Shown piece after piece: positions 22,630 through 34,234 of a stretch of DNA of 35,094 nucleotides; position 1 is the stretch's first letter; each line of letters opens with the position of its first letter. The notes beneath the pieces are model-generated. The model saw only the letters and a program-made list of their open reading frames with translations, made no database searches and was not told the DNA's origin. The position numbers were made by a program, and so were the translations under genes. This stretch comes from Pseudomonadota bacterium (lineage in GTDB: Bacteria > Desulfobacterota > Desulfobulbia > Desulfobulbales > SURF-16), in assembly GCA_018897105.1 (NCBI GenBank), contig JAHILF010000066.1, positions 79,021-114,114 on the forward strand, in the 5' to 3' direction.

Positions 22630-23505
22630 TTACGATGTCATGCTGCTTTCCAGTTCCCCCTGGATTTCAAGGCTGAATCCCTTGACATCCCACAGCTTCT
22701 CTTCCACCGCATCCATTATTTCATCGAGATCTTTCTGGGTCAGGTTCAGGAGCTGCCAGGCCGTCTTGCTGAGCGGTGGAACCCAGACGTCATCTCCGTG
22801 TCCGTAGCCCAGCCCCCGTATCAGAATATCACTGAAATGAATAATGGAAGCGCACAGCTGCTCATCCTTGGCCTCCAGAGGATTGTGGTGGCAGGCAATG
22901 GGTTCGACAAGCTTGGCCGGAAGATTCCAGCTCTTGGCCAGCCAGCCGCCCACCTCGGCATGATCAATACCCAACAGCTCTTTTTCTGCCTCAATCATGG
23001 GAATCTGCCGGTCATGAACCATTTGCTTTAACGTTTCAAATTCCTGCTTCAATTCCATCTTGATGGCCACCTTGCCGATATCATGGATCAGACCGGCAGT
23101 GCTCACCTCCTCGGGATCACTGACCCCCAGATGCTTGGCAAGCACGCTGCAAACCACGGCACAGCCCAGGGAGTGCTCCCAGAGTTCCACATCCTGGGAT
23201 TCCATCAGCTCAAAGATGGAAGAACTGATAATAAGGCTCTTGATAACGTTGAATCCGAGCAGAATCATAGCGCTGTTGAGGGAGCTGATCTTCTGCGGAA
23301 AGCCGTAAAAGGCGGAATTGACCAGCTTGAGCAGTTTCGCCGCCAGAATATGATCCTTGCTGATCACCTTGCCCATCTGCTCGGTGGTGGTATCGGGATC
23401 CTCCGCCATCCTGGTCAGTTTGACAATGATGCCGGGAAGAGTGGGAAGATTTTTCACCTCCCGCAGGGCCTTACGAAATTGGGATTGTCGAGTATCTTCC
23501 ATCAT
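22630..23505 (-). CDS. HDOD-domain signalling protein
   Basis: The protein has 291 residues. The HDOD domain covers about residues 12-210 (LREVKNLPTLPGIIVKLTRM, ILAAKLLKLVNSAFYGFPQK, SAMILLGFNVIKSLIIS) and retains an HD-like LIHDIGKVAI and HHNPLEA. HDOD proteins are usually non-enzymatic signalling adaptors in motility, cell-cycle or chemotaxis control, although this one keeps HD residues. The ATG at 23505 overlaps the upstream stop by ATGA, so it is coupled to the 103-residue protein. The second ATG (23502) is possible. Confidence 0.92.
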   Translation of the reverse strand: MMEDTRQSQFRKALREVKNLPTLPGIIVKLTRMAEDPDTTTEQMGKVISKDHILAAKLLKLVNSAFYGFPQKISSLNSAMILLGFNVIKSLIISSSIFELMESQDVELWEHSLGCAVVCSVLAKHLGVSDPEEVSTAGLIHDIGKVAIKMELKQEFETLKQMVHDRQIPMIEAEKELLGIDHAEVGGWLAKSWNLPAKLVEPIACHHNPLEAKDEQLCASIIHFSDILIRGLGYGHGDDVWVPPLSKTAWQLLNLTQKDLDEIMDAVEEKLWDVKGFSLEIQGELESSMTS

Positions 23506-24355: not shown

Positions 24356-25447
24356 TCAGGCCCCGGAAATGATCATCGCATCTCCATAACTGAAAAACCG
24401 GTAACCGCTCTTCACCGCATGGGCATAAGCGGTTAAAATCCTCTCCCGCCCGACCAGAGCGCTTACCATAAAGAGCAGTGACGATCCGGGCAGATGAAAG
24501 TTGGTTATCAGATTGCTCACCACCTTGAAACGATAGCCCGGATACATATACAGATCACACCAGCCCTCTTTTGCCTGCACCGCGCCTGTCGCATCTGCCG
24601 CAAATTCCAGGGCGCGGACCGTGGTGGTGCCCACTGCCCAGATCCGTCCGCCTCGGTTGCGCACTTCATTAATTTTTCCGGCTGTCTGGGCCGACACCGT
24701 CAGGAATTCGGAGTGAATCTGATGCTGGCGGATGTCCTGGACCCGCACCGGGGCAAAGGTGCCATAGCCCACATGCAGGGTCACGCTCTCCCGTTCAACC
24801 CCTTTTTTATCAATGGCGGCAAGCAGCTCCTCGGTAAAATGCAGCCCCGCCGTGGGGGCGGCAATGGCCCCGGTTTCAGCGGCAAAAACCGTTTGATATC
24901 TTTCCCTGTCCCAGGGCTCTTCTCCCTGCTCCCGTTTGATGTAAGGAGGCAGGGGCAGTTGCCCGTATTTATCCAACAGGGGGGCCAGCTCACCTTGAAA
25001 ATGCAGATTCAGCCTGGCTTTTCCTGCCGCAAAAAGCTCGATAACCTCGGCGGTGAGGTCTTCGGCAAAAATGATTTTCTGCCCGGGCCGGAAGCCCTTG
25101 GAGCTTTTCAGCAGACCTGTCACGTCAACCTGGTTCCGGCTGCCGGCTGCCGTCACAATCTCCTGTGGGTAATGCAGGATAAGCAGTTCAACCCGACCGC
25201 CGGTTTCTTTACGCCCCAGGAGCCTGGCCGGAAAAACCCTGGTGTTGTTCACCACCAGCAGATCACCGGGAGAAAAAAAATCCACGATATCGGTAAAACA
25301 AAGATCGCGGATGGCGCCGGTGATGGAGTCCAGGGCCAGCAGACGGGAAAGCTCGCGGCTTGGGGCGGGCTGCTGGGCAATCCTGTCCGGAGGAAGACCG
25401 TACTGATAGGAGTCAATGTTATACATCAGGGGAATTTTCTCTACCAT
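24356..25447 (-). CDS. queA: S-adenosylmethionine:tRNA ribosyltransferase-isomerase QueA
   Basis: The protein has 363 residues, within the usual range or slightly longer. QueA transfers and isomerises the ribosyl group of AdoMet onto preQ1 in tRNA, giving epoxyqueuosine in queuosine synthesis. Diagnostic segments are DLLVVNNTRVFPARLLGRK, TAGLHFTEELL, HVGYGTFAPVR, GGRIWAVGTTTVRALE and NLITNFHLPGSSLLFMVSAL. The ATG at 25447 is used; an ATG at 25426 (MYNIDSYQYGLP) fits family N-termini equally well and neither has a strong ribosome site. No other queuosine genes are in the window. Confidence 0.97.
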   Translation of the reverse strand: MVEKIPLMYNIDSYQYGLPPDRIAQQPAPSRELSRLLALDSITGAIRDLCFTDIVDFFSPGDLLVVNNTRVFPARLLGRKETGGRVELLILHYPQEIVTAAGSRNQVDVTGLLKSSKGFRPGQKIIFAEDLTAEVIELFAAGKARLNLHFQGELAPLLDKYGQLPLPPYIKREQGEEPWDRERYQTVFAAETGAIAAPTAGLHFTEELLAAIDKKGVERESVTLHVGYGTFAPVRVQDIRQHQIHSEFLTVSAQTAGKINEVRNRGGRIWAVGTTTVRALEFAADATGAVQAKEGWCDLYMYPGYRFKVVSNLITNFHLPGSSLLFMVSALVGRERILTAYAHAVKSGYRFFSYGDAMIISGA

Positions 25448-25827: not shown

Positions 25828-26895
25828 ATGATTACGAGAAAACCGACAAAACAGATAAAGGTGGGCAATGTGCCCATTGGCAACGACGCCCCCATCGCCG
25901 TGCAGTCGATGACCAACACCGACACCCGGGACGTGACGGCAACGGTTGCTCAGATTCACCGGCTGGAAGCTGCAGGTTGCGAGATTATCCGCGTTGCTGT
26001 GCCGGACCTGGAGGCAGCCCGGGCCATTCGCTCTATCCGCGACGGGATCAGCATCCCGCTTATTGCCGATATCCATTTTGACTATCGTCTGGCAGTGGCC
26101 AGCATGGAAAACGGCGCCCAGGGTATCAGAATCAATCCCGGCAACATCGGTGGGGCGGAAAAACTCGGCAAGGTGGTTGATGCCGCCAAAACCCACCAGG
26201 TACCGATCCGGGTCGGGGTCAATTCCGGCTCGGTTGAAAAAGATATCCTGGCCCGCCACGGACATCCGACTCCCGAGGCCTTGGTGGAAAGTGCCATCAG
26301 GAATATCCGGCTACTGGAAAATCTCCACTTTTTCGAGCAGAAGATTTCCATAAAATCATCAAGCACCCTGACCACCATCGCGGCCTACCGCCTGCTCTCC
26401 GCGCAGTGTGATTATCCCCTGCACCTGGGGGTAACCGAGGCAGGTGGTCTTATTGCCGGCACGGTAAAATCAAGCGTTGCCCTGGGCATGCTCCTGTATG
26501 AGGGAATCGGCGACACCTTCCGCATCTCACTCACCCGCGATCCGGTTGAGGAAATCCGCGTCGCCTTTGAGCTTCTCCGCTGCCTGCGCATCCGCGAGAG
26601 AGGACCCGAGCTGATATCCTGCCCCACCTGCGGCCGCTGTCAGATTAATCTCTTCAACCTGGCCGAGAAGGTGGAGGAACATATCCAGCACATGGAAACG
26701 CCCCTCAAAGTTGCCGTAATGGGCTGTGTGGTCAATGGCCCGGGAGAGGCAAAAGAGGCGGATATCGGCCTTGCCGGCGGCAACGGGGTGGGCATTATCT
26801 TCAAAAAAGGGCAGCTCTACAAAAAAGTTCCCGAGGACCAGTTGCTTGAAGTTTTTATTCATGAACTGGATGCCATGGCGCGCAATAAAAAATAA
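25828..26895 (+). CDS. ispG: 4-hydroxy-3-methylbut-2-enyl diphosphate synthase IspG (GcpE)
   Basis: The protein has 355 residues, typical for the short bacterial form. It catalyses the reductive step from MEcPP to HMBPP in the MEP isoprenoid pathway and needs a [4Fe-4S] cluster. The cluster ligands are C265 and C268 (ISCPTCGRC), C300 and E307 ([17 protein letters not shown]). Other family marks are [28 protein letters not shown] and RINPGNIG. The ATG at 25828 has no obvious Shine-Dalgarno sequence, but the protein start aligns with the family. It is followed after 37 bases by proS, then rsh, so the three probably share a transcript. Confidence 0.98.
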
Positions 26896-26932
26896 CTTTC
26901 ACTTTTTATATACTTTGTCAAAAGGACTTTCC

Positions 26933-28654
26933 ATGCGTTTTTCTCAACTCCTCTTACCAACCTTAAAAGAAACCCCTGCCGAGGCTGAGGTTGTCAGCCA
27001 TAAACTGATGCTGCGGGCCGGCTTTATCCGCAAACTGGCCTCAGGCATTTACTGCTACTTACCCCTTGGCCTGAAATCCATCCGCAAGGTGGAACAGATC
27101 GTCAGAGAGGAAATGAACAACGCCGGAGCCCAGGAACTGCTGCTGCCCATGGTCCAACCCGCCGACCTCTGGCAGGAATCAGGCCGCTGGCATAAATACG
27201 GCGCCGAACTGCTGCGCTTTACCGACCGCCACCAGCGGGAAAGCTGCCTCGGCCCCACCCACGAAGAGGTCATTACCGACCTGGTCAGAAAAAACATCCA
27301 TTCCTACCGCAGTCTGCCCCTTAATCTCTACCAGATCCAGACCAAATTCCGCGATGAGATACGGCCACGTTTCGGTCTCATGAGGGGCCGTGAGTTCATC
27401 ATGAAGGATGGCTACAGCTTTGACGCCACCGAAAAGGGGGCTGAAGAAACCTACGAGAAAATGAAGTATGCCTATCACCGGATCTTCACCAGGTGTGGAC
27501 TCAGCTTCCGGGCCGTGGAAGCGGATTCAGGCACCATCGGCGGCAGCTTTTCCCACGAATTCATGGTGCTGGCCGCTACCGGTGAAGACACCATCGTCAT
27601 CTGCAAAGAGTGTTCGTACGCTGCCAATATGGAGAAGGCGCGGGCCATGGAAACTCCGGCCCCTCAGGCAGAGGAAGAGCTTCCCCTGACTAAGGTGGAA
27701 ACGCCAGGCAAACGCAAGGTACAAGCGGTATGCGAATTTCTCGCTATCTCGCCTGCGAATCTGGTGAAAACGCTCATCTACATGGCCGACGGCAAACCGG
27801 TTGCCGTGCTGCTGCGCGGCGATCATGAGGTGCAGGAGGTCAAACTGCAGAACCTCCTGGGAGCAACTGAGGTCCGACTGACCGACGACAAGGAAACCTT
27901 TGACAGCACCGGCACCCCCAGCGGCTACCTGGGACCTGTGGGATTGTCCCTGCCCCTTGTCGCTGACCTGGAAGTTACAAAAATGGCCAATTTCACCGTG
28001 GGCGCCAATGAAAAGAACTTCCATCTGCAGAACGTCAACATCGGCCGGGACTTTACCCCGGCCAGAACCGCGGATCTGCGCATGGTGACCAAAGCTGACC
28101 GCTGTCCGGTCTGCGGCGGGCAGCTGGAACTCACCCGCGGCATCGAGGTAGGCCATATCTTTAAACTGGGCACCACCTACAGTGAGGCGCTCAAGGCCAC
28201 ATTTCTCGACGATCAGGGCAAAGAAATACCCTTTGTCATGGGATGTTACGGTATCGGTGTCAGCCGGGCTGTCGCTGCAGCCATCGAACAGAACCATGAC
28301 AAAGACGGCATCATCTTCCCTCTTCCCATTGCCCCCTTCCAGGTTATGTTGCTCAATCTCTCCACCCAGGATGAGGCAATCAGCAAGGCCGCGGAAAGTC
28401 TTTATGCTGATTTCACGACCAACGGCATTGAGGTACTTTTCGATGACCGGGACGAAAGGCCGGGCATCAAATTCAAGGATGCCGACCTCATCGGTATCCC
28501 TTTCCGGGTCATGGTCGGCAATAATTTAACCAAAGAAGGAAAAATTGAAATCAGGGAACGCGCCGGCAGCCGGACAACCGCCGTCCCTTTTGAAGAAGCG
28601 ACATCGAGGCTCAAACAGATGATAGAGTCCGCTATGAAAAACTGCCAACTCTAA
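26933..28654 (+). CDS. proS: Prolyl-tRNA synthetase, bacterial type with editing domain
   Basis: The protein has 573 residues from ATG 26933 with AAAGGA upstream. The open frame extends back to 26726 inside ispG and that part is rejected. The class II core starts with [20 protein letters not shown] and has motif 2 ([20 protein letters not shown]) and motif 3 ([20 protein letters not shown]). The inserted editing (YbaK-like) domain lies at about residues 225-395 ([20 protein letters not shown]), making it the ProS type 1 form that deacylates Ala-tRNA(Pro). The anticodon-binding domain closes the protein. It sits between ispG and rsh; rsh starts only 10 bases after it. Confidence 0.98.
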
Positions 28655-28664
28655 AGGTGGTTTC

Positions 28665-30878
28665 ATGGCACGACATCAAATTCATGCAAATCATGATCAG
28701 ATCACCATTGACGATCTGATCAAAGAGGCTCGGGAATACCTGCCGGAGAAGGATGCGGAAGATGGCCTGCGCAAGGCCTATGACTTTGCCCTCAAGGTGC
28801 ATGGCGACCGAAAACGACCCAACGGTACACTTTACATCAATCATCCGTTGATCGTTGCCCACATGCTGGCTCACATGCAGCTTGATCTGGAAACCCTGCA
28901 GGCCGCCCTGCTGCATGGAATTTTCAAGGATCCCGACAGTCCGGTAACCACTAAAGAGGTGAATGCGGCATTCGGTCCGGTGGTGGAGGCCATCGTTTCG
29001 GGCGTTACCAAGATCAACAAGGTTGAATTCAATACCAATCTTGACTACCAGGTCGAAAACATCCGCAAGATGCTTCTGGCCATGTCTTCCGACATTCGGA
29101 TCCTGCTGGTCAAACTGGCGGATCGCCTCCATCTCATGCAGCTGATGGATATGCCGAATGACCAGAAAAAAGCCTTTGCCCTTGAGACCATGGACCTCTA
29201 CGCACCCCTGGCCAGCCGGCTCGGTGTGGACTGGATGAAACGTGAGCTGGAAGATCTCGCCTTTGCCTGCCTCCACCCCAAGGAGTATCAGGACCTCGCC
29301 GCCAAAGTGGATTCCTCCACCACGGACAGGGCACGCTATGTGGAGGAAGTCAAAGAGCTGCTGTCAAAAAAGCTGCGCGAACAGGGGCTTACCGATTTCA
29401 AGATACTTGGCCGCCCGAAGCATCTCTACTCCATCTACAGAAAGCTTATTGCCCAGAACATTCCCCTGGAAAAGGTGTATGACAGGGTGGCCTTCCGCAT
29501 CATTCTGCCAAGTGTGCGGGAATGCTATGAAGTCCTTGGCCTGGTCCATTCCCTGTGGGCGCCGATTGCCGGCAGATTCAAGGATTTCATCAGCAGTCCG
29601 AAATCCAATATGTACCAGTCATTGCATACCTCGGTAATCGGCCCCCGCGGCAATTTCATGGAAATCCAGATCCGCACCAAGGAAATGGATAAAATTGCCA
29701 AAGAGGGCATTGCCGCGCACTGGGCCTATAAAGAAGGCACTGCCATCTCCCAGAAAGATGCCAAGATGTTTCAGTGGTTGAAACAGCTCATCCAGTGGCT
29801 GCAGGACCTCAAGGACCCGCAGGAGTTTCTTGATGCCTTCAAGGATGAACTCCATCAGGCGGAAATTTATGTACTTACTCCCAATGGAGAGGTAAAGGAA
29901 CTGCCCGAAGGCAGTACTCCTCTCGATTTTGCTTATGCCATCCACACCCAGGTCGGCAACCGCTGCACAGGCGCCAAAATTAACGGTCGTCTGGTACCGC
30001 TTAAGACCAATCTGAAGAATGGTGATGAGGTTGAGATTCTCAACTCTCCTCACCAGCAGCCCAGCAGAGGCTGGTTGTCTCTGGTCAAAACAAGCAGGGC
30101 CAAAAGCCGTATCCGGCAATTCCTCCGCCAGGAAGAGATGGAAAAAAGCCTCAAACTAGGCCAGGAGATCTGCGAACGGGAATTACGCAAGCATAATCTC
30201 AGCTTGAAGAAACTGATTAAAACCGGTCACTTAAAAGAGATTCTCAAGCGGGCCAACTCCAATGCCCTGGAGGATCTGCTGCGCAAGGTCGGCTCCGGCA
30301 AAATCCGCACTGATCAGATTGTCGATCTGATGCTGCCTCCTGAAGTCAAGAAAAGCAAGGAGGAAGCAGCTGCTGCTGCTGCTGCACTCCATGAGATACC
30401 GACGGAAACAGTAACACCTCCACGGCCTGGCAAAACACGTTCCGGCGACGCGATAGAAATCGATGGCATTGACAATCTGCTGATCAAAATCAGTCACTGC
30501 TGTCTGCCCATGCCGGGGGATGATATCATGGGCTTTATTACCACTGGTCGGGGTATTTCCGTCCATAAGGCCAACTGTCCCAATCTGCTGGCAATGGACC
30601 CCATAAGACGCATTGAGGTGCAATGGTCAAGTTCGACCAAGACCCAGCATCGCGCCCATATCCAGATCATCGCTCAGGATAAAAAAGGTCTATTGGTGAC
30701 GATCTGCAATGCCATCACCAATGACGATGCCAACATTCTCAATGTGGACGCCCATGCCACCAAAGACAACCTGGCCAGACTCAATATCGTTCTTGAGGTA
30801 AACAACATGGAACACCTGAGCACATTGCTGCAGCATCTGCGACAGCTTGATCAGGTAATTGAGGCGAGAAGAAGATAA
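28665..30878 (+). CDS. Long RSH protein (RelA/SpoT homologue) with degenerate hydrolase and apparently intact synthetase
   Basis: The protein has 737 residues with the full HD-SYNTH-TGS-Helical-ACT layout. The synthetase keeps YDRVAFRIIL, RFKDFISSPKSNMYQSLHT and EIQIRTKEMDKIAKEGIAAHW. TGS (VLTPNGEVKELPEGSTPLDF), the CC region (SHCCLPMPGDDIMGFIT) and a C-terminal ACT domain follow. In the HD domain the usual LLHDVVED reads LLHGIFKD (H84-G85, K88) and ADRLHN reads ADRLHL (L157), so a metal-ligand Asp, a catalytic Glu and a conserved Asn are changed. Hydrolysis of (p)ppGpp is therefore probably lost, leaving a RelA-like role. The first His (NHP, H60) is kept. Third gene of the ispG-proS-rsh group. 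Confidence 0.95.
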   Translation: MARHQIHANHDQITIDDLIKEAREYLPEKDAEDGLRKAYDFALKVHGDRKRPNGTLYINHPLIVAHMLAHMQLDLETLQAALLHGIFKDPDSPVTTKEVNAAFGPVVEAIVSGVTKINKVEFNTNLDYQVENIRKMLLAMSSDIRILLVKLADRLHLMQLMDMPNDQKKAFALETMDLYAPLASRLGVDWMKRELEDLAFACLHPKEYQDLAAKVDSSTTDRARYVEEVKELLSKKLREQGLTDFKILGRPKHLYSIYRKLIAQNIPLEKVYDRVAFRIILPSVRECYEVLGLVHSLWAPIAGRFKDFISSPKSNMYQSLHTSVIGPRGNFMEIQIRTKEMDKIAKEGIAAHWAYKEGTAISQKDAKMFQWLKQLIQWLQDLKDPQEFLDAFKDELHQAEIYVLTPNGEVKELPEGSTPLDFAYAIHTQVGNRCTGAKINGRLVPLKTNLKNGDEVEILNSPHQQPSRGWLSLVKTSRAKSRIRQFLRQEEMEKSLKLGQEICERELRKHNLSLKKLIKTGHLKEILKRANSNALEDLLRKVGSGKIRTDQIVDLMLPPEVKKSKEEAAAAAAALHEIPTETVTPPRPGKTRSGDAIEIDGIDNLLIKISHCCLPMPGDDIMGFITTGRGISVHKANCPNLLAMDPIRRIEVQWSSSTKTQHRAHIQIIAQDKKGLLVTICNAITNDDANILNVDAHATKDNLARLNIVLEVNNMEHLSTLLQHLRQLDQVIEARRR

Positions 30879-31995: not shown

Positions 31996-32025
31996 TTGTA
32001 ATTTGTTATCAAGTTTGCCTATAAT
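31996..32025 (+). promoter_or_regulatory. Candidate sigma-70 promoter for the TonB receptor operon
   Basis: TTGTAA (31996-32001) and a perfect TATAAT (32020-32025) are 18 bases apart. Transcription would start near 32032, giving a leader of about 200 bases before ATG 32234. This long leader has no recognisable riboswitch. Confidence 0.55.
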
Positions 32026-32233
32026 CATTAAAAATATACCAACCATTCTTACGCATAACACAGAGCGCTCACGTTTTGAAAACGATGACGGACAGCCACT
32101 ATTTGTGACATTGAGCATCACCCGGAGAGGGAAAAAGACCATGGAACAAGCCGTTCGCCCTCATGATAAGGAAACCGAAAAAACACATCGAAAACATAGG
32201 GGATATCATCTCCTGGCAATCACAGGACACTCA

Positions 32234-34234
32234 ATGAAGACAACCATCCGCAAAACCCTTGTGGTGCTTACCATCTACGCCGGCCTTATGATGCCATCGA
32301 CGGCTACTGTTCTGGCGAAATCTGAGACTGACGATAATTACTTCGACATGGGGCTGGCCCAGTTGATGCAAGTGACCATTACCTCGGTAGCGAAAAAGCC
32401 CCAACCCCTGGCCGACACCGCGGCGGCCGTTTTCGTAATCACCCAGGAGGATATCCGCCGCTCCGGGGTGACCTCCATCCCGGAAGCCCTGGCCATGGCC
32501 CCGGGGATACAGGTGGCGCGTATCAGTTCAAGCAAATGGTCAGTCTCCTCCCGAGGTTTCGGCGGTCTCACTTCCAATAAACTGCTGGTGATGATCGATG
32601 GCCGGTCAGTCTATACCCCAGCCTACAGCGGCACCTTCTGGGACATGCAGAATACGCTGCTCGAGGATATCGACCGGATCGAGGTGATCCGGGGTCCCGG
32701 CGGCACTATCTGGGGCGCCAATGCGGTCAACGGGGTGATCAACATCATCACCAAAAAATCGCAGGATACCCTGGGAACAATGGTGCGGGTCGGGGCAGGC
32801 AATGAGGAAAAATTCACGACAGGCGCCCGCTACGGGGCCACAATCGGTGATTCCGCCTTCGGCCGCTTCTATGTCACCGCCAACGACCGTGACAGCAATG
32901 AACTTGCCGGCAGCGAGCAGGATGCCCACGACGGCTGGCGTAATATCCAGGGCGGATTCCGTATGGACGGGATAGTCGGCTCCAAAAATGAGTGGACCCT
33001 GCTAGGGGATCTTTACCGGAATAAAGGCGATCAAATTGTTTTTCCCTTCTGGCTCGAAGGCGTTATTTACCCGGCTACAGATTATGGTGATTACACCTCC
33101 GAGGGCGGCAACCTCATCGGCAGCTGGCAGCACAGGTTATCCGGCGGTGATCTTTTGACCTTCAAGGCTTACTATGATAAAAATGACCGGGAGGAATCCT
33201 ATTACGAACAGACCTTTACCACCATTGACCTGGATCTGCAGTATGAAACCTCACTCGGTGATCGCAATAGTCTAACCATGGGGACAGGTTTCCGCCAGGT
33301 CGACGGCCAATTTCTACAAACCTTCCAGGTCATCGTTCCCGACCAGACCAATGACCTCTACAGCGCCTTTCTGCAGGACGAAATCAAGCTGATTGATGAT
33401 CGGTTATGGCTGACCGTTGGGACCAAGTACGAACACAATGACTTTACCGGCAGCGAATGGCAGCCAAGCGCCCGCCTGCTGTGGAAGCCGGCAATGGATC
33501 ATTCGCTGTGGACCTCTATTGCCCGTGCCGTCCGCACTCCTTCGCTGACAGAGATCAACGGCGCGGTCACAGTCGGTGTCTATCCGACCGGTTATGGTAC
33601 GCAAACTATACCGGTAAGAGTAGTCGGCAATTCCGACTTCGAATCGGAGACTCTCATAGCCTATGAAGCAGGATATCGCTGGTTGGTCAGCCAGCATTTT
33701 TCTTTCGATGTGGCAGCCTATTACAACGACTATGACAAAATCTACAGCAATGCATACATTCCACCCAGTCCCGACCTGCCACTTGTCAATGCAAAAGAGG
33801 GGGATGGTCATGGTGTGGAGATTGCGGCCAACTGGCAGACCAACTCCTGGTTGTCTTTTTATTTTGCCTACACGTGGCAGGAACTCAATATTGACGTAAA
33901 AGATTCCTGGAAACCGCTTATTTCCCAGGAAGAGTTCGACACCAATAACATCCCCAAACATCTTCTTTCCGTGCGTTCTGCCATCGATTTAACAGAAAAC
34001 TGGCAGCTTAACTGCTGGCTGCGTTACGTGTCGGGTATCGGCGATGGCAACAACGTAGATTCATATTATCTGTTTGATGCCAACCTGATCTGGAAACCCA
34101 GGAAAGATCTGGAGATCATGTTTGCCGGGCAGAACCTGTTCAACAACAATCAACTTGAATACGTTGCCGAATTTATTACCCCGCCCACTGAAATCGAGCG
34201 GAGTATTTACGGGAAAGTCACCTGGTGCTTTTAG
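32234..34234 (+). CDS. TonB-dependent outer-membrane receptor
   Basis: The protein has 666 residues from ATG 32234, after AGGAC and at the start of a clear signal peptide (MKTTIRKTLVVLTIYAG, cleavage after VLA); the longer frame from 32003 begins before or at the promoter and is rejected. The plug domain follows (VFVITQEDIRRSGVTSIPEA, DRIEVIRGPGGTIWGANAVN, GVINIITKKSQD), then a 22-strand barrel ending in the terminal aromatic Phe (YGKVTWCF). A TonB-box-like VTITSVAKK is near the N-terminus. It takes up a siderophore, vitamin or other ligand using TonB energy; the ligand is unknown. YfiR follows after 12 bases, suggesting a signalling rather than purely nutritional role. The stop is TAG. Confidence 0.95.
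   Translation: MKTTIRKTLVVLTIYAGLMMPSTATVLAKSETDDNYFDMGLAQLMQVTITSVAKKPQPLADTAAAVFVITQEDIRRSGVTSIPEALAMAPGIQVARISSSKWSVSSRGFGGLTSNKLLVMIDGRSVYTPAYSGTFWDMQNTLLEDIDRIEVIRGPGGTIWGANAVNGVINIITKKSQDTLGTMVRVGAGNEEKFTTGARYGATIGDSAFGRFYVTANDRDSNELAGSEQDAHDGWRNIQGGFRMDGIVGSKNEWTLLGDLYRNKGDQIVFPFWLEGVIYPATDYGDYTSEGGNLIGSWQHRLSGGDLLTFKAYYDKNDREESYYEQTFTTIDLDLQYETSLGDRNSLTMGTGFRQVDGQFLQTFQVIVPDQTNDLYSAFLQDEIKLIDDRLWLTVGTKYEHNDFTGSEWQPSARLLWKPAMDHSLWTSIARAVRTPSLTEINGAVTVGVYPTGYGTQTIPVRVVGNSDFESETLIAYEAGYRWLVSQHFSFDVAAYYNDYDKIYSNAYIPPSPDLPLVNAKEGDGHGVEIAANWQTNSWLSFYFAYTWQELNIDVKDSWKPLISQEEFDTNNIPKHLLSVRSAIDLTENWQLNCWLRYVSGIGDGNNVDSYYLFDANLIWKPRKDLEIMFAGQNLFNNNQLEYVAEFITPPTEIERSIYGKVTWCF

Follow-up and report, generated by a model that had tools for sequence, protein, structure and literature searches.

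How does a bacterium break down the alarmone (p)ppGpp when the hydrolase site of its Rel protein has degenerated? The question is raised by a 35,094-nucleotide stretch of contig JAHILF010000066.1 (positions 79,021 to 114,114 of the forward strand; assembly GCA_018897105.1) from a member of the order Desulfobulbales, phylum Desulfobacterota. This whole stretch, called the window below, encodes a long RelA/SpoT homolog (RSH), which we name RSH-A. Very probably, RSH-A is the ancestral Rel, still in its ancestral place and now synthetase-only, with hydrolysis carried out by a second protein, RSH-B, whose own synthetase is dead, so that the two form a reciprocal pair. The activities that we assign to them are predictions from residue loss, divergence, phylogeny, and gene order.

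Hydrolase and synthetase motifs of RSH-A

RSH-A has the long RSH (Rel) architecture of HD, synthetase (SYNTH), TGS, helical/ZFD, and ACT domains. Its Pfam matches are HD_4 (residues 38-188), RelA_SpoT (249-358), TGS (401-459), RelA_AH_RIS (472-645), and ACT_4 (659-736), and it scores 720 bits against NCBIfam TIGR00691 (cut-off 499). Catalytic residues are numbered as in RelSeq, by alignment; the numbering is consistent with the residues named in PMC13299517. The relevant features, with positions in amino acids (aa), are:

28665..30878, plus strand: RSH-A, long RSH of 737 aa, predicted synthetase-only (open reading frame [ORF], Pfam, NCBIfam)
28836..28850, plus strand: INHPL, aa 58-62, with the Mn ligand H53 (aa 60) retained (alignment)
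28908..28931, plus strand: degenerate HD box LLHGIFKD, aa 82-89, H77 and D82 kept, D78 replaced by G and E81 by K (alignment)
29112..29135, plus strand: KLADRLHL, aa 150-157, N148 replaced by L, D144 kept (alignment)
29571..29630, plus strand: synthetase RXKD/G-loop motif GRFKDFISSPKSNMYQSLHT, aa 303-322, intact (alignment)
29658..29678, plus strand: synthetase MEIQIRT with the catalytic Glu (RelSeq E323), intact (alignment)

A bifunctional Rel carries the hydrolase set H53, H77, D78, E81, D82, D144, and N148. RSH-A lacks D78, E81, and N148 and keeps H53 (aa 60), H77 (aa 84), D82 (aa 89), and D144 (aa 153). Its synthetase motifs GRPK, VYD, GRFKD...YQSLHT, and EIQIRT are all intact. ORF translation and alignment bear out the sequence-only reading of this DNA where it had pointed to the LLHGIFKD and ADRLHL changes and to RFKD, rather than EXDD, in the synthetase. 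That reading had also counted a metal-binding Asp, a catalytic Glu, and a conserved Asn as lost. All three residues are indeed gone, but D78 is not a direct Mn ligand in RelSeq, where the Mn ligands are H53, H77, and D144 (PMC13299517), and these stay in RSH-A. RelSeq D78 forms a salt bridge to R44 and nears the metal on substrate binding, and both R44Q and D78A abolish hydrolysis (PMC13299517). In Acinetobacter SpoT, substitutions of E82, D83, and N147 give hydrolase-inactive enzymes (PMC9974481); by position, these would be RelSeq E81, D82, and N148. Because several residues essential in published mutants are gone at once, RSH-A is predicted to have lost hydrolysis.

Aligning RSH-A with its counterparts in the order, a check that the sequence-only reading had proposed, shows that the loss is shared. 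All 39 RSH-A sequences analysed, which come from all 15 families of the draw, lack at least two of D78, E81, D82, and N148 (all four in 30, three in 8, two in 1), so the change in the window is not a sequencing slip. D78 is kept in 1/39, E81 in 2/39, and N148 in none; the synthetase residue E323 is kept in all 39. The replacements recur: Lys stands in for E81 in 35 sequences and Gly for D78 in 32, with both in 31; N148 is replaced by Asp in 29 and by Leu in 7. Four sequences were left out of the 39. L011 and L216 have HD domains interrupted by in-frame stops, L207 is truncated at a contig end (its HD box reads LLHGVLKE), and L205 is a third RSH of another kind.

RSH-B and the distribution of the pair

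If RSH-A does not hydrolyze (p)ppGpp, what does? The sequence-only reading held that the cell must have another hydrolase and suggested looking for a second RSH. An HD_4 search of the window's genome (G000, completeness 100) returned a candidate: it matched two proteins, RSH-A and the 702-aa RSH-B on contig C117, and found no third. The hydrolase site of RSH-B is intact (HP, MLHDTIED, and KLADRLHN). Its synthetase is ruined, with GRPK absent, IENPLEIII in place of VYDRVAFRI, and YLFKIRT in place of MEIQIRT. The same genome encodes one more RelA_SpoT protein:

L007:5713-6852, minus strand (contig C157): RelA_SpoT protein of 379 aa, no HD domain, weak NCBIfam match (Pfam)

Judged by eye, this protein keeps the D..GIR, GYSSIH, and EFQLRT motifs, and it is probably a short alarmone synthetase. 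Taken with RSH-A and RSH-B, it gives two predicted synthetases and one predicted RSH hydrolase per cell.

The pair extends through the order. At least two HD_4 matches occur in 111 of its 117 genomes, although such matches were identified as RSH-A and RSH-B only where the sequences were read. Among the six genomes with one match, a separate contig encodes the C-terminal portion of RSH-B in G009, G039, and G106; in G049, RSH-B is whole and RSH-A partial. With HD_4 counts used for unread genomes, a second HD-bearing RSH, whole or partial, is present in 115/117. The same pair is found in Desulfopila sp. IMCC35008, which has a complete chromosome, and in Desulforhopalus sp. GLR1684, both genera being Desulfobulbales, which supports that name for the window's order.

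For RSH-B we compared 30 sequences: 21 from the window's order (10 families, window genome included), 6 from families f48 and f81 outside it, and 3 from named contigs; L101, which is cut and has an intact HD box, was left out. H53, H77, D78, E81, D82, D144, and N148 are all kept in 30/30, and in 30/30 E323 is replaced by Leu and the Gln two positions on by Lys. The alignment also included 32 intact Rels, among them the named L144 and L179; L083, a near copy of L082, was omitted. Some loci were repeated with their flanks (L237, L239, and L240 are L012, L215, and L034; L238 and L241 are L022 and L070). Contigs were scanned with the RSH-B alignment and the patterns KLADRLHN and RDFIANPK, a scan biased to intact Rels; among at least 80 loci, RSH-B appeared as L100 to L103.

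Two of the excluded loci, from different species of a single related genus, have an in-frame stop within the pseudo-hydrolase (L011, G006:C80; L216, G009:C199). One stop is TAG and the other TAA, at different sites, and the frame is open in two further species of that genus; the stops may be assembly errors or the real loss of a dispensable domain. The third RSH, L205 (G069:C5:1915), lies on a 9-kb contig in a genome that also has an RSH-A (L206). Its HD and SYNTH motifs are intact, it is 38% identical to RSH-A, and it could have come by transfer or contamination.

Degenerate Rels elsewhere in the phylum

Most of 197 genomes drawn from the phylum have one HD_4 match. The 46 Rels that we read from outside the order were chosen: 20 from genomes with at least two HD_4 matches, 20 from a match list (18 of them single-match), and 6 whose HD_4 scores were low or middling. 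The full set of D78, E81, D82, and N148 is kept in 31 of the 46, and the Rel is hydrolase-degenerate in the other 15, from families f32, f48, f56, f71, f81, f89, and f90. A second HD-bearing RSH accompanies the degenerate Rel in 15/15; its motifs were read in 12 of these, with HD intact and SYNTH degenerate in 12/12. No second long RSH was seen for 30 of the 31 intact-Rel genomes: 24 have a single HD_4 match, and in six the RSH-A search gave no second protein above 262 aa. The remaining one, G231, has a second HD_4 match whose location was not found. A Fisher test of 15/15 against 0/30 gives 2.9e-12, which is descriptive only, the genomes being related and chosen and so not independent.

Two other RSH lineages with an intact HD and a degenerate SYNTH co-occur with degenerate Rels, one comprising L074 to L076 (f71, f90) and the other L077, L242, and L243 (f56, f32). 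One of them is only about 480 aa long, and neither groups with RSH-B.

Descent and gene order

Where did RSH-A come from? Our main tree, built in IQ-TREE under LG+C20 with posterior mean site frequencies (PMSF), covers 70 rows and 527 columns of the synthetase and C-terminal regions. The order's RSH-A form a 100/100 clade, in which the Desulfopila RSH-A nests, inside a group of mostly Desulfobacterota Rels (80/85). RelA stands apart in a clade of its own (100/93), joined to the Chloroflexi Rel L177 (100/99). When RSH-A is constrained to group with RelA, the log-likelihood drops by 96 units (approximately unbiased [AU] test, p 1.3e-5); under the model used, the tree and this test reject a place for RSH-A in the RelA clade.

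Gene order agrees with this placement. Two genes upstream of RSH-A complete an ispG-proS-rel cluster:

25828..26895, plus strand: ispG, first gene of the cluster (NCBIfam ispG_gcpE, 428 bits over cut-off)
26726..28654 (listed ORF), plus strand: proS, between ispG and RSH-A (NCBIfam proS_fam_II, 740 bits over cut-off)

The true proS start is probably about 26933, as the family model begins at residue 70. The same order is found in three other members of the Desulfobulbales (L237, L239, L240) and at the intact Rels L230, L232, and L144 from outside it. Other intact out-of-order Rels share part of it, proS-rel in L233 and ispG upstream in L231, and ispG adjoins rel at the degenerate f81 and f48 loci (L234, L235). 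An arrangement held in common with intact Rels agrees with vertical descent, and since grouping with RelA is also rejected, RSH-A appears to be the ancestral Rel stripped of hydrolysis. The tree, the AU test, and the gene order thus all favor the independent loss that the sequence-only reading had proposed over descent from gammaproteobacterial RelA.

RSH-B lies elsewhere, adjoining rnr (ribonuclease R) in 5/5 order loci looked at (L006, L238, L100, L102, L103); rnr is not beside the RSH-B copy at the f81 locus L241. A tree of HD domains resolves RSH-B as a long-branched clade (100/99) that is separate from seven SpoT rows (no Moraxellaceae SpoT among them) and weakly placed among Desulfobacterota Rels (86/54). 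The order's RSH-B groups with the f48/f81 copies in our trees. AU tests do not reject holding the order's RSH-A with the f48 and f81 degenerate Rels (p 0.334), nor a single clade of all sampled hydrolase-degenerate Rels of the phylum (p 0.194). The split may have arisen once or repeatedly within the phylum, and RSH-B may stem from duplication or from transfer.

Selection, metal ligands, and fold

Rates of evolution were compared by domain. For RSH-A we used the genus and one neighboring genus (7 sequences giving 21 pairs, of which 14 to 18 were usable for each domain). The pseudo-HD has a median dN/dS of 0.133, against 0.054 for SYNTH and 0.030 to 0.089 for the C-terminal domains, which makes the pseudo-HD the fastest of the five domains, at about 2.5 times SYNTH; the closest pair gives 0.154 for HD and 0.049 for SYNTH. 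For RSH-B (5 sequences, 10 pairs, 2 to 6 usable), the HD domain is slowest at 0.027, the pseudo-SYNTH stands at 0.066, and the C-terminal domains at 0.063 to 0.098. In both proteins, dN/dS lies far below neutrality in every domain. RSH-A and RSH-B distances between 22 genomes are correlated (Mantel r 0.93, p 1e-4), as expected if both were inherited together.

The Mn ligands H53, H77, and D144 occur together in 37/39 RSH-A and 13/15 out-of-order degenerate Rels, and in 0/8 RelA. The authors of PMC9974481 speculated that loss of Mn binding accompanied the turning of RelA into a synthetase-only enzyme. RSH-A suggests that the two are separable. The same paper reports shorter flexible regions for hydrolase-only enzymes and longer ones for synthetase-only enzymes, a rule that holds here in part. 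The median Core length is 38 residues in RSH-B, 45 in intact Rel, and 46 in the RelA rows. For HEL-ZFD the medians are 44 in RSH-B, 52 in intact Rel, 60 in the order's RSH-A, 50 in other degenerate Rels, and 52 in the RelA rows. The a6-a7 loop has 14 residues in RSH-A, as in Rel, against 22.5 in RelA.

Two structure models were made, both with a low predicted template modeling score (pTM; 0.59 and 0.54), from which we used the fold of the N-terminal half and left the domain arrangement uninterpreted. In the RSH-A model (pTM 0.59), the HD fold is normal, with a predicted local distance difference test (pLDDT) score of 78-94 in ten-residue blocks over residues 11-200. Compared with S. aureus Rel bound to pppGpp, the N-terminal half of the model gives a template modeling (TM) score of 0.93 of the target.

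Weighing the explanations

How might the pair work? With its full Rel architecture, RSH-A presumably synthesizes (p)ppGpp on starved ribosomes, and RSH-B, encoded elsewhere in the genome, would do the hydrolysis; together they would do the job of the single Rel found elsewhere. The RSH-A pseudo-hydrolase has most likely been retained as a regulator of the synthetase, like the pseudo-HD of E. coli RelA, an inactive domain that controls synthesis (PMC8012599). We favor a folded, metal-binding domain that would regulate synthesis, because its fold is predicted, it is under purifying selection, its Mn ligands are kept, and E. coli RelA offers an analogy. A more specific version is possible, though we hold it tentatively: RSH-A as a "metal on, catalysis off" factor, in which the pseudo-HD would bind Mn and perhaps (p)ppGpp and, by sensing metal or alarmone, would switch synthesis. 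The Lys usual at E81 and the Asp usual at N148 would then close the dead site, and the stringent response of the entire order would depend on this sensor and on a separate, essential hydrolase. If true, such a sensor would run counter to the Mn-loss suggestion made for RelA.

Several observations weigh against a division of labor between an ancestral Rel and RSH-B. RSH-A was found without RSH-B in G019 (90% complete), G100 (86%), and G020 (82%; outside the 117). Nine genomes of the phylum with at least two HD_4 matches were left out of the comparison (G157, G158, G172, G219, G225, G266, G278, G286, G303). Neither ispG nor proS lies beside the degenerate f56 Rel (L236). The dN/dS values are rough, with dS high and many pairs unusable, and the RSH-B pseudo-SYNTH evolves no faster than the C-terminal domains; the mirror pattern in RSH-B therefore comes down to its slow HD. 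Finally, a quick whole-length LG+G4 tree that included the HD columns set E. coli RelA beside the order's RSH-A with support 92. This last result is what speaks for an acquisition of RSH-A from beta- or gammaproteobacterial RelA, or for a loss common to both, an explanation that we find scarcely credible. The pairing disappears under the mixture model on non-HD columns, and we explain it by long branches and by degenerate HD domains attracting each other. A RelA origin is further opposed by the AU test, by RXKD rather than EXDD, by the Rel-length a6-a7 loop, by the ispG-proS-rel order, and by the different residues lost in the two groups.

Two other explanations concern the pseudo-hydrolase itself. 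One is that RSH-A still hydrolyzes (p)ppGpp or a related nucleotide through H53, H77, and D144 by an altered mechanism. The triad is nearly universal in RSH-A, the Gly/Lys box is itself conserved, unlike random decay, and the window protein also retains D82. We nonetheless judge this improbable: a change at any one of positions D78, E81, and N148 ends hydrolysis in other RSHs, as published mutants show, the HD domain evolves much faster than SYNTH, and almost every genome of the order has a second HD-bearing RSH, a count that rests partly on HD_4 matches. The other explanation, unlikely in our view but deserving real weight, sees a decaying remnant with no role of its own, whose removal would unfold the N-terminal half. 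Its faster evolution relative to SYNTH fits, as do the in-frame stops in two species of one genus (G006, G009) and the missing Gly/Lys box in 8/39 RSH-A, f5 and f9 rows among them. Against it stand a pseudo-HD dN/dS far under 1, the predicted fold, the kept metal triad, and the precedent of E. coli RelA, in which an inactive domain has a function.

Relation to known systems

We read RSH-A and RSH-B, on their sequences, as an apparently independent, order-wide, reciprocal division of Rel, like RelA[hS]/SpoT[Hs] but in neither clade and with the metal site kept. The Moraxellaceae pair RelA[hS]/SpoT[Hs] (Acinetobacter baumannii) likewise consists of synthetase-only and hydrolase-only long RSHs that keep their dead partner domains (PMC3153485, PMC9974481). 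RSH-A resembles RelA[hS] in its degenerate hydrolase site and intact synthetase site, and RSH-B resembles SpoT[Hs] in its intact HD residues, its lost SYNTH residues, and a Core and HEL-ZFD shorter than in Rel. The differences lie in descent and detail. The synthetase-only member is of separate origin, judged by the AU test against sampled beta/gamma RelA in a tree with no Moraxellaceae, and RSH-B falls outside the sampled SpoT clade. RSH-A also differs from RelA in keeping RXKD, the metal triad, and an unlengthened a6-a7 loop.

Within the deltaproteobacteria, Atkinson et al. (PMC3153485) give Rel[HS] as the typical long RSH. They list second copies, RshD[HS], in four taxa given as deltaproteobacteria, including Desulfotalea psychrophila; the Desulfotalea copy and that of Syntrophobacter form one clade. 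The available text of that paper reports a complete split for Moraxellaceae only. RSH-B may correspond to RshD[HS], which we compared by its description: each is an additional long RSH, Desulfotalea too belongs to the Desulfobulbales, and the distribution agrees. The order's RSH-B groups with the f48/f81 copies much as the Desulfotalea copy does with that of Syntrophobacter. The bifunctional labels RshD[HS] and Rel[HS] do not suit this pair: synthetase residues are lost throughout RSH-B and hydrolase residues throughout RSH-A. Bifunctional Rel[HS] of other Desulfobacterota are orthologs of RSH-A by gene order and tree and have the same domains, but their hydrolase residues are intact. A further likeness is to Bacteroidetes such as Porphyromonas gingivalis, where Rel lacks key hydrolase residues and is read as synthetase-only, and a second RSH, RshB, is the hydrolase (PMC6994654). 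RshB is read there as bifunctional, however, whereas RSH-B has lost its synthetase residues. Among the literature matches listed, we found none on a split in this order and recognized Atkinson et al. 2011 as the sole paper bearing on it; subscription papers were mostly outside the coverage, and a mention could be missed.

A complete partition of synthesis and breakdown, described in the available literature for one family, the Moraxellaceae, would thus be order-wide in the Desulfobulbales and independent of RelA, as residues, distribution, and parallel divergence indicate. It serves as a replicate in which to ask what else has to change for such a partition. Three changes that the RelA rows show do not occur here: the lengthened a6-a7 loop, EXDD, and Mn-ligand loss. 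Core and HEL-ZFD shortening in the hydrolase-only partner, published for Acinetobacter SpoT, recurs in RSH-B. The RXKD/EXDD rule is weakened, because the predicted synthetase-only RSH-A has RXKD and the Rels L148 and L177 combine an intact HD with an EXDD-type motif; RXKD is an unreliable sign of a bifunctional enzyme.

Other observations

The Chloroflexi Rels L148 and L177, on Dehalococcoidia and Anaerolineae contigs, have an intact HD box together with EEFDD or GEFDD. The joining of L177 to RelA is possibly a clue to the origin of RelA. Further features of the window near RSH-A are:

22633-23505, minus strand: HDOD protein
24359-25447, minus strand: queuosine biosynthesis protein
32003-34231, plus strand: TonB-dependent receptor

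Finally, L202 (Desulfopila sp. IMCC35008, G310:C1:4828683) and L219 (G008:C9) are synthetase-like proteins with open frames of about 470-560 aa. They carry an EXDD-like GSFDDY/GGFDDY motif, and hydrolase catalytic residues are not recognizable in them.

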